Shown: positions 32,562 through 37,479 of the stretch, one piece after another
How positions within the stretch are numbered: the first letter of the stretch is position 1
How the letters are laid out: every line of letters begins with the position of its first letter
Assembly (NCBI RefSeq): GCF_900168015.1
Contig: NZ_FUYR01000001.1
Location: forward strand, 1,486,943 to 1,550,942
Length of the DNA stretch: 64,000 nt
Reading direction: 5' to 3'
From: Daejeonella lutea
GTDB taxonomy: Bacteria > Bacteroidota > Bacteroidia > Sphingobacteriales > Sphingobacteriaceae
The notes under the pieces: generated by a model
Told to the model about the DNA's origin: nothing
Seen by the model: only the letters and a program-made list of their open reading frames with translations
Database searches by the model: none
Program-made: the position numbers and the translations under genes

Positions 32562-33332
32562 CTAACCTCGTATCATTTTTAAAAACTCCCCTACCCGATC
32601 CAGCGCGTTTTCAGTGCCCAGGAGCTTCACGAAAGCGCTTCCAACAATTGCGCCGCGGGTGTATTCTGCAGCCTTATTAAAACTCTTCTGATCAGAAATA
32701 CCGAAACCAATCATCGTAGGGTTCTGCAAATTCATATCCCTAATTCTTTGAAAATATGAATCAGCTTCATTAGACACTTTTAGATCCTTGCCGGTGGTAG
32801 AAGATGAAGAAAGCAAATAAATGAATCCATTGCTTAAGCCGTCGATCTTTCTTATCCTTTCCTCCGACGTTTGCGGGGTTACCAGGAATATATTGCTTAG
32901 TTTATTTCCAAGGAAGCAATCCTTGTAGAGGCTTTCATATTCATACATCGGCAGATCGGGCACGATAATTCCATCGACACCAACTTCCGCAGCTTTATTG
33001 CAGAAATTCTCAACACCATATTGAAGAACAGGATTAACATACCCCATGAGCAAAACCGGTATAGATACACGTTTTCTAAGATCTTTCAATTGCTCGAAAA
33101 GAATTGGCAGTGTCATTCCGTTCTTCAATGCAACCTGTGAACTTGCTTGGATGACGGGGCCATCAGCAACCGGATCAGAGTACGGGAAGCCTATCTCAAT
33201 AAAGTCGGCACCACCGTTTTCCAATGCTTCAGCGATATCCAGCGTGCTGTTTAGGTCTGGATAGCCAGCGGTAAAATAGATTGAAAGTATCGGACTTTTT
33301 TTATTCTTAAATAGTTCGTTTAGTCTGTTCAT
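32562..33332 (-). CDS. trpA: Tryptophan synthase alpha chain
   Basis: A 256-residue TIM barrel. DFIEIGFPYSDPVADGP (residues 43-59) holds the catalytic glutamate E46 and aspartate D57; the phosphate-binding loops (GIS and GAIVGSAFV) follow. It cleaves indole-3-glycerol phosphate to indole, which is channelled to TrpB. It is the last gene of trpDFBA and starts 17 bases after trpB stops. Confidence 0.95.
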   Translation of the reverse strand: MNRLNELFKNKKSPILSIYFTAGYPDLNSTLDIAEALENGGADFIEIGFPYSDPVADGPVIQASSQVALKNGMTLPILFEQLKDLRKRVSIPVLLMGYVNPVLQYGVENFCNKAAEVGVDGIIVPDLPMYEYESLYKDCFLGNKLSNIFLVTPQTSEERIRKIDGLSNGFIYLLSSSSTTGKDLKVSNEADSYFQRIRDMNLQNPTMIGFGISDQKSFNKAAEYTRGAIVGSAFVKLLGTENALDRVGEFLKMIRG

Positions 33333-33349
33333 TATTAATAAAATGGCGA

Positions 33350-34558
33350 TTAAAGGTTAAAGTGTTTCATATAGTTGTCCAGGTCCTTATCACCGCGCCC
33401 CGAAAGGCAGATCACCACAGTTTCATTTCCTTTAAATTTCATTTTATCCAGGTGCGCCAGGGCATGTGCACTTTCTATGGCTGGAATAATCCCTTCCAAT
33501 TCAGCTAGCAATCGTCCGGCGTCCATTGCTTCATCATCCGTGGCACTGACATATTCGCCACGACCGGTCTTGAATAAATGAGCATGTTGCGGACCGATAC
33601 CTGGATAATCGAGACCTGCTGAAATAGAATAGGGCTCTACGACCTGACCATCGTTAGTTTGCATCAGGATGGACCGACTGCCATGTAAAACACCCTCTTT
33701 TCCAAGGGCAGTTGTCGCCGCTGATTCCCCACTCTCGACACCTAAGCCGGCAGCCTCGATAGCAATTAGCCTGACATCTTCATCATCAAGGAAGTGATAG
33801 AACATCCCTATGGCGTTGCTGCCACCGCCAACGCAGGCCATAACAATATTGGGATTCTCCGAACCCGTTTGCTCCTTAAGCTGGGCCTTTGTCTCTTCGG
33901 AAATAATTGCCTGAAACCTCGCAACCATATCAGGATAAGGGTGCGGACCGACAACAGACCCGATAATATAATGCGTATCTACGGGATTGTTGATCCAATC
34001 GCGCATAGCTTCATTAGTTGCATCCTTTAAGGTTTTGCTGCCAGAAGTGGCTGGCACGACTGTAGCGCCCATCATCTTCATACGGGCAACATTTGGTGCC
34101 TGGCGTTGGATATCGATCTCCCCCATATAGACTACACATTCGAGGCCCATTAAGGCACAAACCGTTGCTGTGGCTACACCGTGCTGCCCTGCTCCGGTTT
34201 CAGCAATGATGCGCTTCTTACCCAATCGCTGAGCAAGCAGAATTTGTCCGACCGTATTGTTGATCTTATGAGCCCCCGTATGATTGAGATCTTCTCTCTT
34301 GAGGAAAATCCTGGCACCGTACTTTTCAGATAATCGCCCAGCCAGAAACAATGGTGAAGGCCTTCCTACATAGTCTTTGAGTAACTTGTGAAAACTCTCC
34401 TGAAATGAGGGGTCATAAATGATATCCAAATACTTTGTTCGCAGCTCTTCTACGTTAGGATATAGCATTTCAGGGATGTAGGCTCCCCCAAAATCACCAT
34501 AATAACCCTTATCATTCACTCCCCAGTTCACTGAACTTTTAATAAATTCTCTATTCAT
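33350..34558 (-). CDS. trpB: Tryptophan synthase beta chain
   Basis: A 402-residue TrpB1-type enzyme. [11 protein letters not shown] carries the PLP lysine K98; [13 protein letters not shown] is the phosphate-binding glycine loop; [13 protein letters not shown] is the conserved substrate segment. It condenses indole with serine to make tryptophan. Full length with no internal defect. Confidence 0.97.
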
Positions 34559-34609: not shown

Positions 34610-35269
34610 CTATTTCTTAATTCTCAAAGCCCTGATCTTGTCAAAGGTCTCTCGAATTTTATCAATGTCCTTTAAAGCTGGTTCGTGTTCATATTTACTG
34701 TTTAAATCCAGTCCGTGCAGACGAACATCCTTTAAAGACCTTACCGCATCGATGTTATCGGGACTTAAGCCTCCACTTAGGAAGTATTGCTTTGTGCCAT
34801 GATAATGTTGAAGAATATTCCAGTCGAACGTTTGCCCGGATCCTCCATGACCTGCTGTGCTGGTATCAAACAAGAAATAGTCGACAAAATCTTCATATGC
34901 ATCGAGAGCTGTGAAGTCAAAACCTTCATGTATGCCGAAGGCTTTAATTAATTCCACGTGCTTTTCTGTTTGCATATTATGTAGGAATTTCTTGAATGAT
35001 CTACAGAATTCCGGTGATTCGCTGCCATGTAATTGTATGGCATCGAGATTATATTGTATCACTTCATCCGCCATAGTATCCATCGCTTCATCTACAAACA
35101 CACCAGTCTTTTTTACATGAGCTGGAATTTGCCCGATGGTAGTCAAGTCAAGTTTGCCAGCGAATCTACTTGAATGAGGATAGAATATGAAGCCAATATA
35201 GTCGGGCTGCAATTCCACCAATTCCCGGATATTATCTGGTTCCCGCATTCCACAAACCTTCAGTATCAT
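34610..35269 (-). CDS. trpF: Phosphoribosylanthranilate isomerase
   Basis: A 219-residue TIM barrel, stand-alone. KVCGMREPDNI at the N-terminus holds the catalytic cysteine C6; FDTSTAGHGGSGQTFDW and FLSGGLSPDNID are the conserved central blocks; the general acid aspartate lies in GLDLNSKYE. It performs the Amadori rearrangement of PRA to CdRP. It overlaps trpD by 4 bases. The enzyme for the next step (trpC) is absent from this cluster. Confidence 0.94.
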   Translation of the reverse strand: MILKVCGMREPDNIRELVELQPDYIGFIFYPHSSRFAGKLDLTTIGQIPAHVKKTGVFVDEAMDTMADEVIQYNLDAIQLHGSESPEFCRSFKKFLHNMQTEKHVELIKAFGIHEGFDFTALDAYEDFVDYFLFDTSTAGHGGSGQTFDWNILQHYHGTKQYFLSGGLSPDNIDAVRSLKDVRLHGLDLNSKYEHEPALKDIDKIRETFDKIRALRIKK

Positions 35270-36252
35270 GCTACAAGTTTCTTAAAACAGTCAAGTGCCT
35301 TTTTACTTATTAACGATTCTTCTGCCTCATAAAAGCAATCAGCAAAAGACAGATGTGGCTTTATTGTACGAATCGCAATTGCGGCATTGCAGATTACGAC
35401 GTTATTCTGCTCAGTAGTTCCGTTCCCGCCAAGAACGTCCTTGAAAATAGTAGCGGAATCCTCTACTGTACTACCGCCGCCAATTTTGGAAGGATCAATC
35501 TTTTCGAAACCTAATTGAGATATCGAATAAATATGTTCACCACTGCCCGAAAACGTCTTGAAGTCGCATGTCAAAGAAATTTCGTCATATCCTTCGAGAG
35601 CATGCAAAATGGTATATTTCAACGACGATTTTTGATATAAGTAGGCATATAGTCTTGCCAGTTCAAGACTAAAAACTCCCACCAACTGATTCTGAGGCCG
35701 TGCTGGATTAACCATAGGGCCCAGCATATTGAAAAATGTCTTTACTCCCAGCTCCCTGCGTATTGGTGCAACGTTCTTCATGGCCGGGTGAAAAAGAGGC
35801 GCATGCAGAAAACAAATTCCTGCCGTATCAAGACTCCTGCGTAACTCATCTGAATCATTCGTAAACTTGTAGCCAAGAAATTCCATCACGTTTGAAGACC
35901 CACATCCTGAGGAAACACCATAATTACCATGCTTAGCAACCTGGTACCCTGCACCGGCAACCACAAATGAAGCAAGAGTAGAAATGTTGAACGTATCTTT
36001 ACCATCTCCTCCTGTTCCGCACAGATCCACTAAATCGTAATCCTGAAGTTTAGGTTTAAGGCATAGGTCAAGCATTCCGTCCCGGAAACCTTCAAGTTCA
36101 TCGACGGTGATCGTCCTCATGCAATAGACAGCCATAAAAGCAGCCATTTGAGATTGATTATATTTCCCCAGTGCTATATTGGTGAGTATTTCTTTTGCTT
36201 CATCTCTGCCGAACGTTTTCTGTTCAAACAGGTGATTTAATATTTTCTTCAC
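35266..36252 (-). CDS. trpD: Anthranilate phosphoribosyltransferase
   Basis: A 328-residue enzyme starting with GTG at 36252. CGTGGDGKDTFNIST is the PRPP-binding glycine loop; KHGNYGVSSGCGSSNVMEFLG is the next conserved block; FNMLGPMVNPARP follows. It adds the phosphoribosyl group to anthranilate. It is the first gene of trpDFBA, 142 bases downstream of an attenuator-like terminator and a Trp-rich leader peptide. No trpE or trpG lies upstream. Confidence 0.95.
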   Translation of the reverse strand: MKKILNHLFEQKTFGRDEAKEILTNIALGKYNQSQMAAFMAVYCMRTITVDELEGFRDGMLDLCLKPKLQDYDLVDLCGTGGDGKDTFNISTLASFVVAGAGYQVAKHGNYGVSSGCGSSNVMEFLGYKFTNDSDELRRSLDTAGICFLHAPLFHPAMKNVAPIRRELGVKTFFNMLGPMVNPARPQNQLVGVFSLELARLYAYLYQKSSLKYTILHALEGYDEISLTCDFKTFSGSGEHIYSISQLGFEKIDPSKIGGGSTVEDSATIFKDVLGGNGTTEQNNVVICNAAIAIRTIKPHLSFADCFYEAEESLISKKALDCFKKLVA

Positions 36253-36393
36253 AATTATATTCTTAATTCGTTCTTAACAAAATTCTGCAATTCCCGACTG
36301 TTCACATCATAACTTGAATCAAGCTAAATTCTGCCCATCCTAAAGGCAGGCATGCAGCACGGCATTTGAAAACAAACTATATATAAATAAAAA

Positions 36394-36415
36394 AGGTTGC
36401 CTTTAGGCAACCCTT
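36394..36415 (-). terminator. Trp attenuator terminator upstream of trpD
   Basis: On the minus strand GGTTGCC-TAAA-GGCAACC forms a 7-bp GC-rich stem (extendable by AAG/TTT) followed by six Ts, then A. It lies 28 bases after the leader-peptide stop and 142 bases before trpD. A possible competitor is GGCGATC (36464-36458, inside the leader), which can pair over 7 bp (two G-U) with the GGTTGCC arm. Confidence 0.85.
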
Positions 36416-36442
36416 CATATCTAGTTTCTTTATATGGAATAA

Positions 36443-36517
36443 CTATATACGCTTACTGATCGCCGATTGATTATTCATCTGCCACCACCACTTTGTATAT
36501 ATATTGCTTGCTTTCAT
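36443..36517 (-). CDS. trpL: Trp operon leader peptide with three consecutive Trp codons
   Basis: An ATG at 36517 opens a 24-residue frame ending in TAG at 36443: MKASNIYTK, then WWW, then QMNNQSAISKRI. Three TGG codons in a row (36490-36482) in a short frame before a terminator and then trpD are the hallmark of Trp transcription attenuation. The peptide itself is expected to have no function beyond sensing charged tRNA-Trp. A stalled ribosome at the Trp codons would leave GGCGATC (about 18 bases downstream) free to pair with the terminator arm. The symbol is by analogy with enterobacterial trpL. Confidence 0.75.
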   Translation of the reverse strand: MKASNIYTKWWWQMNNQSAISKRI

Positions 36518-36526
36518 CTTGTAAAG

Positions 36527-36558
36527 CAAATATGGATAATCTTTTCTTTAGCTGCAAA
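36527..36558 (-). promoter_or_regulatory. Candidate trp promoter
   Basis: On the minus strand TTTG (36558-36555) is followed after 20 bases by CATATTTG (36534-36527), 7 of 8 matches to TAnnTTTG. Its end is 9 bases before the leader-peptide ATG, implying a very short 5' leader. It shares the intergenic space with the divergent YitT gene. Confidence 0.45.
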
Positions 36559-36579: not shown

Positions 36580-37479
36580 ATGAAAGCGACAAGACGATCC
36601 AGGCAACGATTAAAACGTAAAATTGATGCGGGAAAGGCTGCATTAATACTCATCGGAGTTGGCCTTGCATGTTTTGGATTAAAAGGCTTTCTCCTCCCAA
36701 ATCACTTTATCGACGGCGGGATAACCGGAATATCCCTGTTGACTTACCAACTGACATACAAATCCACCGGTATTCCAGTTTCTTTTTGGCTCGTATTATT
36801 TAACATTCCATTTATCATTCTTGGTGCTAAACAGATAGGCCGTCGATTTGCCATCGGTACATCAATAGCAATTCTTGTACTTGCTGCAATGATCTTTTTA
36901 GTTGACTTCCCTCAAATTACTGATGATAAAGTGCTGACCGCAATTTTCGGAGGTTTCTTTCTGGGTGCCGGTATCGGTCTTGCCATTCGAGGGGGTTGTG
37001 TAATCGACGGGACGGAAATCCTGGCAGTATACCTCAATAGAAAAAGTATCTTAAGCATGGGTGATATCATTTTACTTATCAACGTGATCATCTTTCTTCT
37101 GGCTGCATTTGTTTTAGGAATTGAAAATGCACTTTACTCAATACTCACTTACCTCTCGGCATCAAAAACAGTAGATTTCATCATTCAAGGGATTGAAGAG
37201 TATACCGGAGTTACAATTGTCTCCGCCAAAAGTGCACAGATCCGGGAGGCAATAACTAAAAACCTGGGACGGGGCGTTACCGTGTACAAAGGTGAGCGAG
37301 GCTTTGAAAGTGCTCAGTTTAAAAGTAAAGACATCGACATTATCTTTACGGTGGTTACACGATTGGAAGTTTCTAAATTAAAACAGGAGATAGATCAGAT
37401 AGATCACAAAGCTTTTATTGTGATGAGTACCATCAGCGATACCAAAGGAGGCATCATAAAGCCAAGGCCGTTGCACTGA
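36580..37479 (+). CDS. YitT family membrane protein (DUF161 + DUF2179)
   Basis: A 299-residue protein. Residues 25-200 hold about five or six membrane segments of DUF161 (with GFLLPNHFIDGGITGISLL and GGFFLGAGIGLAIRGG-type glycine motifs), followed by the soluble DUF2179 from residue 215 (TIVSAKSAQIREAI, GRGVTVYKGERGF). The family may be transporters, but no substrate is agreed. It is divergent from the trp operon. Confidence 0.88.
   Translation: MKATRRSRQRLKRKIDAGKAALILIGVGLACFGLKGFLLPNHFIDGGITGISLLTYQLTYKSTGIPVSFWLVLFNIPFIILGAKQIGRRFAIGTSIAILVLAAMIFLVDFPQITDDKVLTAIFGGFFLGAGIGLAIRGGCVIDGTEILAVYLNRKSILSMGDIILLINVIIFLLAAFVLGIENALYSILTYLSASKTVDFIIQGIEEYTGVTIVSAKSAQIREAITKNLGRGVTVYKGERGFESAQFKSKDIDIIFTVVTRLEVSKLKQEIDQIDHKAFIVMSTISDTKGGIIKPRPLH

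Follow-up and report, generated by a model that had tools for sequence, protein, structure and literature searches.

The question raised by the locus described here is whether a short tryptophan-rich reading frame in front of trpD in Daejeonella lutea is the sensor of a transcription attenuator. The window, i.e., the whole stretch of DNA analysed, comprises 64,000 nucleotides of contig NZ_FUYR01000001.1 (assembly GCF_900168015.1; host genome 4.03 Mb in 10 contigs). Coordinates count from its first letter, and features are on the minus strand unless stated otherwise. A preliminary description, made from the letters of the window alone, had proposed that a leader peptide, a terminator and a competing antiterminator control trpDFBA. 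From the sequence and its comparison with relatives, a ribosome-mediated transcription attenuator very probably controls this operon; leader conservation, antiterminator pairing and two-state folding all speak for the proposal. A protector hairpin, a second leader with terminator in front of trpEGC and a predicted promoter that leaves the leader mRNA nearly leaderless had been overlooked.

Leader peptide, terminator and trp genes

The leader open reading frame (ORF; 36443..36517) has 24 codons, translated as MKASNIYTKWWWQMNNQSAISKRI and followed by a stop, with the three consecutive TGG codons (WWW) at 36482..36490. Trp is otherwise rare in the window, accounting for 16 of 3238 codons (0.49%) in 11 long ORFs. 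An intrinsic terminator (helix 3:4; 36388..36416) stands between the leader and the first gene. Its 11-pair stem (36416-36391) reads GAAGGGTTGCC-TAAA-GGCAACCTTTT, with TAAA as the loop, and is followed by a T-run; 100% of its cells are paired in the alignment of the genus. The first gene, trpD (35266..36252; TIGR01245 295 bits, cut-off 199), begins with GTG at 36252, 142 nt from position 36394 and 139 nt beyond the terminator stem. Both the run of Trp codons in a small ORF ahead of the trp genes and the intrinsic terminator before the first gene are features of a classical attenuator. Frame, Trp codons, stem and distance to trpD agree with the preliminary description. Its spacing between frame and stem needs a small correction: the outermost terminator pair starts 26 nt past the leader stop codon, and the 28 bases given there were counted from slightly further in.

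TrpD has near-full-length relatives with 71-90% identity in the genus (own copy and locus L020 excluded) and 62-80% in named records, of which the nearest are Sphingobacteriales metagenome-assembled genomes (MAGs), Mucilaginibacter, Pelobium and Pedobacter. Downstream of trpD lie trpF (34610..35269; Pfam PRAI), trpB (33350..34558; TIGR00263 above cut-off) and trpA (32562..33332; TIGR00262 above cut-off), in the same order as in relatives. The spacer between attenuator and trpD contains a second, weaker terminator-like inverted repeat, CTGCCTTTAGGATGGGCAG (36349-36331), and CCCCC/GGGGG repeats were seen in the corresponding spacer of L026, L027, L036 and L042.

Conservation of the leader

Relatives of trpD were gathered from 20 genomes of the genus and 80 named loci. 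A duplicate (L012, on the same contig as L025), a contig end (L020), weak matches (L021-L024, 19-26% identity) and loci of other families (L082, L086-L089, L091-L104) were removed, and 79 Sphingobacteriaceae loci were kept. Seventeen of the other-family loci, those with a complete trpE start, were moved to the trpE set (L097 and L099 were not). This set comprises 66 regions, i.e., these 17 and 49 regions (48 genomes) from a class-wide draw of 149 genomes, of which 49 gave a trpE match at E ≤ 1e-60; G417 (contig end) was left out. Leaders were located with a script that looks for a W-rich short ORF and a hairpin with T-run 15-120 nt further on. It starts each frame at the 5'-most ATG and picks the strongest W motif, which yields over-long peptides in L014, L035, L089 and L172, and it anchored L177 on a late CW. 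The sets contain near-duplicates, e.g., an identical peptide in L147 and L088, and all counts derive from protein-anchored surveys.

A leader and a terminator lie upstream of trpD in 78 of the 79 Sphingobacteriaceae loci, 76 of them found by script and two by eye (L050, whose start is cut by the contig end, and L074, with an interrupted T-run). The W-rich frame is kept: the motif in the 76 script-found leaders is WWW in 69, WW in three, WCW in two, WRW in one and CW in one. One of the three Trp codons is replaced by a Cys codon in L004 and L011 (WCW) and in L025 (WWC); L018 reads LCW.

The element is also found in front of trpE. The script detected leader and terminator in 34 of the 49 class-draw regions; L170, L174 and L183, inspected by eye, have a WWW leader and a hairpin whose T-run is missing, displaced or interrupted, and three regions are cut by contig ends. 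In the other families all 17 loci with a complete trpE start carry a leader before this gene, with YWWWH in 13.

Antiterminator and protector pairing

Segment 2 (GGCGATC, 36458..36464) is the 5' strand of the antiterminator. Its partner, segment 3 (GGTTGCC, 36406..36412), forms both the 3' strand of the antiterminator and the 5' arm of the terminator. The two segments make seven pairs, two of them G-U, exactly as the preliminary description had it. In the window segment 2 begins 17 nt beyond the last Trp codon. The distance is 12-21 nt in 74/76 trpD and 44/51 trpE leaders, and in 20% of dinucleotide shuffles. Energy and position of the 2:3 helix together give p < 0.05 in 69/76 trpD and 40/51 trpE leaders; in the window the value is p 0.010, and p 0.045 for energy (5000 dinucleotide shuffles). 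A leader's own segments pair better with each other than with swapped ones; the trpD value was reached by 24 of 2000 permutations and the trpE value by none of 2000. Complementarity with the terminator arm is kept in relatives: in 19 sequences of the genus, 130/130 antiterminator cells hold standard pairs, a share that falls to 22-52% when the strands are slid, and one double-sided change, G-C to A-U, was found.

Applied unguided to the genus alignment, RNAalifold recovered the terminator, an apical hairpin and a basal helix. The apical hairpin pairs segment 1 (36476..36484), which holds the last Trp codon and following codons, with 36461..36469, a strand that overlaps segment 2; it is the classical 1:2 protector. 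The basal helix of the 1:2 domain pairs leader codons just upstream of the Trp codons (36495..36500) with 36445..36450. In the 19 genus sequences 87.5% of the apical cells are paired, with double-sided changes in three pairs, and 93.0% of the basal cells, with such changes in one pair. Protector, basal helix and terminator together are 93.2% paired (31-47% when slid), and their covariation score was reached by 0/500 shuffles.

For 50 sequences outside the genus RNAalifold gave the terminator only, as the MAFFT alignment displaces the hairpin by one column from clade to clade. In other genera, 1:2 pairs were therefore counted in an alignment with one fixed register, which excludes L037 and the Sphingobacterium leaders L083-L085 because their register differs. 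In these 51 sequences 84% of the apical cells are paired (19-37% when slid; shuffle mean 74%, reached by 0/500), and 59 cells show double changes, against a shuffle mean of 29 (0/500 reach). Taken in isolation, the 1:2 hairpin beats its shuffles at p < 0.05 in 58/76 trpD leaders. A protector overlapping the antiterminator strand, another feature of the classical attenuator, is thus present across the family and weak in the window alone.

Modelled ribosome switch

The ribosome was modelled as a block of unpairable nucleotides, counted from the first base of the codon in the A site and extending 15 nt upstream and 12 nt downstream of it. The transcript was cut short ahead of the 3' arm of the terminator, and the 2:3 helix was scored as formed at a probability > 0.5. 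The helix forms in 76/76 trpD and 48/51 trpE leaders for at least one Trp codon placed in the A site, in 0/76 and 4/51 when the A site holds the stop codon, and in 10/76 and 10/51 when no ribosome is present. The probabilities computed for the window are 1.0 on the Trp codons, 0.0 at the stop and 0.01 without ribosome. Folding in both ribosome states, as the preliminary description had suggested, thus yields the predicted switch in the model, with a competing antiterminator that would be free on the Trp codons and masked at the stop codon, as in a classical attenuator.

Promoter and 5' end of the leader mRNA

A predicted Bacteroidota primary-sigma promoter precedes the leader, with a -33 element TTTG (36555..36558) and a -7 element CATATTTG (36527..36534) that has 5/6 of the consensus TAnnTTTG. 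The -7 box TAnnTTTG sits at -12 to -5 in Flavobacterium psychrophilum (PMC9723704), and the predicted transcription start is therefore placed five bases after the last G of the element, at 36522, which leaves a predicted 5' untranslated region (UTR) of 5 nt (36518..36522). A -7 element with at least 5/6 of TAnnTTTG stands 4-17 nt before 112/126 leader ATGs and before 138/919 other ATGs of the same regions; joined with the -33 TTTG, it stands before 87/126 and 8/919, respectively. The predicted 5' UTR has a median of 4 nt in trpD leaders (n=73; 66 below 10 nt) and of 6 nt in trpE leaders (n=41; 34 below 10 nt), as determined by a script that takes the motif nearest the ATG and is thereby biased to short 5' UTRs (for L010 it returned -2 nt, which is impossible). 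It found no such promoter element in 3/76 trpD and 10/51 trpE leaders.

The leader mRNA is thus predicted, from these promoter motifs, to be nearly leaderless, which is the least expected feature of the element. In Bacteroides thetaiotaomicron about 3.7% of the mapped 5' UTRs are reported to be below 10 nt (PMC7366714), and in F. psychrophilum 5.5% of the mRNAs are reported as leaderless; the phylum is said to lack Shine-Dalgarno sequences (PMC9723704).

Proposed mechanism and its weighing

Sequence and comparison establish the elements together with their pairing, spacing and conservation. For kinetics, transcription start, stalling and the effect on read-through, we infer the following course. 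RNA polymerase would begin about 5 nt upstream of the leader ATG, with a ribosome loading almost at the 5' end of the RNA and translating the leader. With ample charged tRNA-Trp the ribosome would reach the stop codon and mask much of segment 2, segment 3 would pair with segment 4, and transcription would end some 135 nt from its start. Short of Trp-tRNA, the ribosome would stall on the WWW codons and cover protector strand 1; segment 2, left free, would pair with segment 3 and block the terminator, and the operon would be transcribed. Without translation the 1:2 domain would hold segment 2, and termination would be favoured.

Several observations weigh against this reading. In the window's own RNA the 2:3 helix includes two G-U pairs and is, considered by itself, only moderately unusual, and the isolated apical hairpin is weak (-3.4 kcal/mol, p 0.318); the case therefore rests on conservation. 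Among relatives, the energy of the 2:3 helix alone gives p < 0.05 in only 44/76 trpD and 21/51 trpE leaders, and the isolated 1:2 hairpin in only 18/51 trpE leaders. The swap test for trpD is weak in ranks, with a median of 42% of foreign segments pairing equally well. Some covariation controls are weak: 28/500 shuffles reach the covariation score of the antiterminator because its columns hardly vary, 28/500 also reach its number of pairs with double changes, and 500/500 reach its pair-type count. For the protector, basal and terminator helices of the genus, 32/500 shuffles reach the number of pairs with double changes and 105/500 the number of pair types, and for the apical hairpin outside the genus 17/500 and 465/500. 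The stop-state result of the model is a consistency check, since the mask covers segment 2 largely by position. Leader frames in the genus of the window extend beyond segment 2, which a ribosome at the stop codon therefore covers only in part. The trpE leader of the same genome follows the pattern less cleanly: its 2:3 probability is 0.93 with the ribosome on Trp codons, 0.35 with it at the stop codon and 0.95 in its absence. No W-rich leader was found upstream in L090, a Sphingobacteriaceae MAG with trpD-trpF-trpB (the region carries another hairpin with a T-run), and 9 of the 46 uncut class-draw trpE regions are leaderless by script (L146, L151, L153, L158, L166, L176, L179, L182 and L184). 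Finally, the related sequences are not independent of each other.

Alternative explanations

One alternative is action in trans of the terminated leader RNA or its peptide, besides or instead of attenuation in cis. When Trp is plentiful, the cell would indeed make a separate short RNA (about 135 nt) as well as a peptide, parts of the peptide are common within genera, and a precedent has been reported for peTrpL of Sinorhizobium meliloti (PMC7298713). Outside the W codons, however, the peptide differs between genera whereas the RNA pairing is kept, which points to a function of the RNA in cis, and a role in trans appears improbable.

Leader peptides are generally able to act on translation as well, and the leader structure could hide the trpD start. 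An intrinsic terminator with T-run stands between leader and trpD, however, and its distance from the gene, 139 nt here, ranges from about 10 to 400 nt across the trpD loci; translational attenuation is accordingly very unlikely.

Another sensor (T-box, ligand riboswitch or TRAP) could likewise use a terminator with competing helices ahead of an amino-acid operon, and the W-rich frame would then be incidental. A TRAP-controlled leader carries an array of about 11 (G/U)AG repeats, whereas the predicted leader RNA of 136 nt has only two such triplets (two UAG, no GAG). No Rfam family matches anywhere in the window at gathering score. In a relaxed Rfam scan the T-box is absent, whereas the family Bacteroid-trp (RF01692) is listed over the whole element. 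The W codons, moreover, are the conserved feature, and we consider the chance of another sensor to be close to nil.

A chance ORF ahead of an ordinary terminator might be suggested by the modest isolated statistics of the window and is hardly conceivable given that TGGTGGTGG occurs a single time in the 64 kb (both strands counted), that 78/79 family loci keep the leader and that there is no upstream gene on the minus strand to terminate, as the neighbouring YitT-family gene (Pfam; 36580-37479, plus strand) is divergent from the trp leader.

Relationship to known attenuators and RNA families

The preliminary description was unsure how well such attenuation is documented in this group; the mechanism it assumed is well supported, and an Rfam family of this kind exists. 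Weinberg et al. 2010 mark Bacteroid-trp in their Table 1 as a likely RNA with a likely cis-regulatory role (PMC2864571). Bacteroid-trp was noted upstream of the F. psychrophilum trp operon and likened to the E. coli trp leader (PMC6414381), and strong clues for leader-peptide attenuation before amino-acid operons of that species were reported (PMC9723704). The sections of the latter article considered here give no measurement of Trp-dependent read-through for these 5' elements.

In the relaxed scan RF01692 covers 36537-36406 at full length and on the right strand with 21.3 bits (E 4.1), which misses its gathering cut-off of 49 bits. Across the own genome nothing exceeds the cut-off, and the trpD leader is not among the two sub-threshold places, both on contig C8 (27.2 and 26.8 bits), away from trpD and trpE. 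Among 20 leader-bearing loci only L101 and L155 pass at gathering score; in a relaxed scan of 12 loci, L154 passes and L160, L181 and L156 attain 38-39 bits. The trpE loci that pass (L101, L154, L155) likewise combine a WWW leader with a terminator and a 2:3 pairing that can switch. The window shares the architecture and position of these members, and its element is a divergent Bacteroid-trp RNA, below the cut-off of that model. Both are Trp-leader RNAs of Bacteroidetes; the element in the window differs in preceding trpD of a split operon.

A covariance model, R1, was built from the leaders of the genus, with the window in its training set, and gives E 3.9e-18 on this training sequence. Outside the training set it finds other Sphingobacteriaceae leaders (e.g., L026 at 1.2e-11) as well as the trpE leaders L155 (E 0.004) and L101 (E 0.018), and it places the own trpE leader correctly at E 0.99. 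Two trpE leaders, L082 and L180, are missed at E ≤ 1. With stricter filters and E ≤ 0.1, matches anywhere in the genome were obtained in 44 of 61 family genomes and none in 17; second matches in these genomes score 29-39 bits. The weaker matches L195 and L196 in the own genome have a terminator and no Trp leader.

The enterobacterial attenuator (trpL, RF00513 Trp_leader) has in common with the element the tandem Trp codons, the 1:2, 2:3 and 3:4 helices and the intrinsic terminator. It differs in having two Trp codons in E. coli where the window has WWW, and the leader mRNA is predicted to be near-leaderless in the window. At E up to 10, RF00513 (cut-off 41 bits) gives no entry for the window, and it comes near its cut-off on other Bacteroidia trpE leaders (L173 38.5 bits, L156 36.8 bits). 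Actinobacterial trp attenuators are likewise classical, with double or triple UGG repeats, and Corynebacterium diphtheriae resembles the own genome in having two separate trp operons, each with a candidate attenuator; these belong to another phylum and have other conserved triples (gGCC-rGCy-GGCC), as described in PMC1262725.

Two pattern searches were discarded. In the own genome TGGTGGTGG-N20-60-GGTTGCC matched nothing, since the real spacing is longer. A phylum-wide pattern scan, with matches in 175/395 genomes, was rejected for counting attenuators as too noisy because reversed-pattern controls match too. Apart from the trp element, a Flavo-1 RNA (RF01705, 50.4 bits, gathering 42) was seen at 1400-1539 of L049, about 1.1 kb upstream of a Pedobacter trpD leader.

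Split trp operon and the leader of trpEGC

All 79 Sphingobacteriaceae loci have trpF and trpB after trpD, and neither trpE nor trpG was found upstream of trpD in the up to 3 kb covered (the shortest two regions, 204 and 596 nt). The own genome has trpE, trpG and trpC (named by NCBIfam/Pfam) grouped on another contig, preceded by a second leader with WW, MNMTQNTGNWWYPLTQRRTGQVF, and a terminator. The other families in the set have the order trpE-G-D-C-F-B-A as far as their loci extend. The two Sphingobacteriaceae attenuators may derive from one ancestral attenuator of the unsplit operon.

Leaders of other amino-acid operons

Three regions of the own genome carry candidate leaders for other amino acids. 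On contig C2, L194 (1507-1628) has a Phe/Tyr-rich leader, MNINSTYYFAYFYYPQ, upstream of pheA (start 1630), with a promoter-like ACATTTG, a candidate antiterminator (-13.1 kcal/mol) and a strong terminator; the genes downstream encode a prephenate dehydratase (Pfam PDT) and DAHP synthase. This leader was picked up by R1 at E 0.0185. On contig C4, L189 (1225-1288, 0-based) has a His-rich short ORF, MNKVFTHHVHFHHRFAAMVK, before hisG, with no obvious GC-rich terminator by eye. On the same contig, L190 (1145-1256, 0-based) has before ilvD a short ORF ending in the branched-chain-rich NLFVLNILFTVILIPS, and a GCC...GGC hairpin with T-run lies between this ORF and ilvD.

Implications

The trp attenuator is present in 78/79 trpD loci and 34/49 class trpE regions, yet RF01692 calls only 2/20 leader-bearing loci. 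There is a nearly even chance that the trp attenuators of the Bacteroidia form one ancient RNA family that is wider than RF01692, with its leader ORF on a nearly leaderless mRNA and with each half of the operon keeping or gaining a copy when it was split in the Sphingobacteriaceae. If this is true, the promoter would be fixed so near the ATG that the ribosome must load at the 5' end of the RNA without a Shine-Dalgarno sequence, and the leaders would offer a natural setting for testing in vivo how closely transcription is coupled to translation in the phylum. Attenuation requires a ribosome close behind RNA polymerase. The principle is that of the textbook and the RNA is of a catalogued kind; it is the setting, a split operon and a near-leaderless leader, that is worth an experiment, for which the trp leaders and the pheA, his and ilv candidates would be ready reporters of transcription-translation coupling and near-leaderless initiation.
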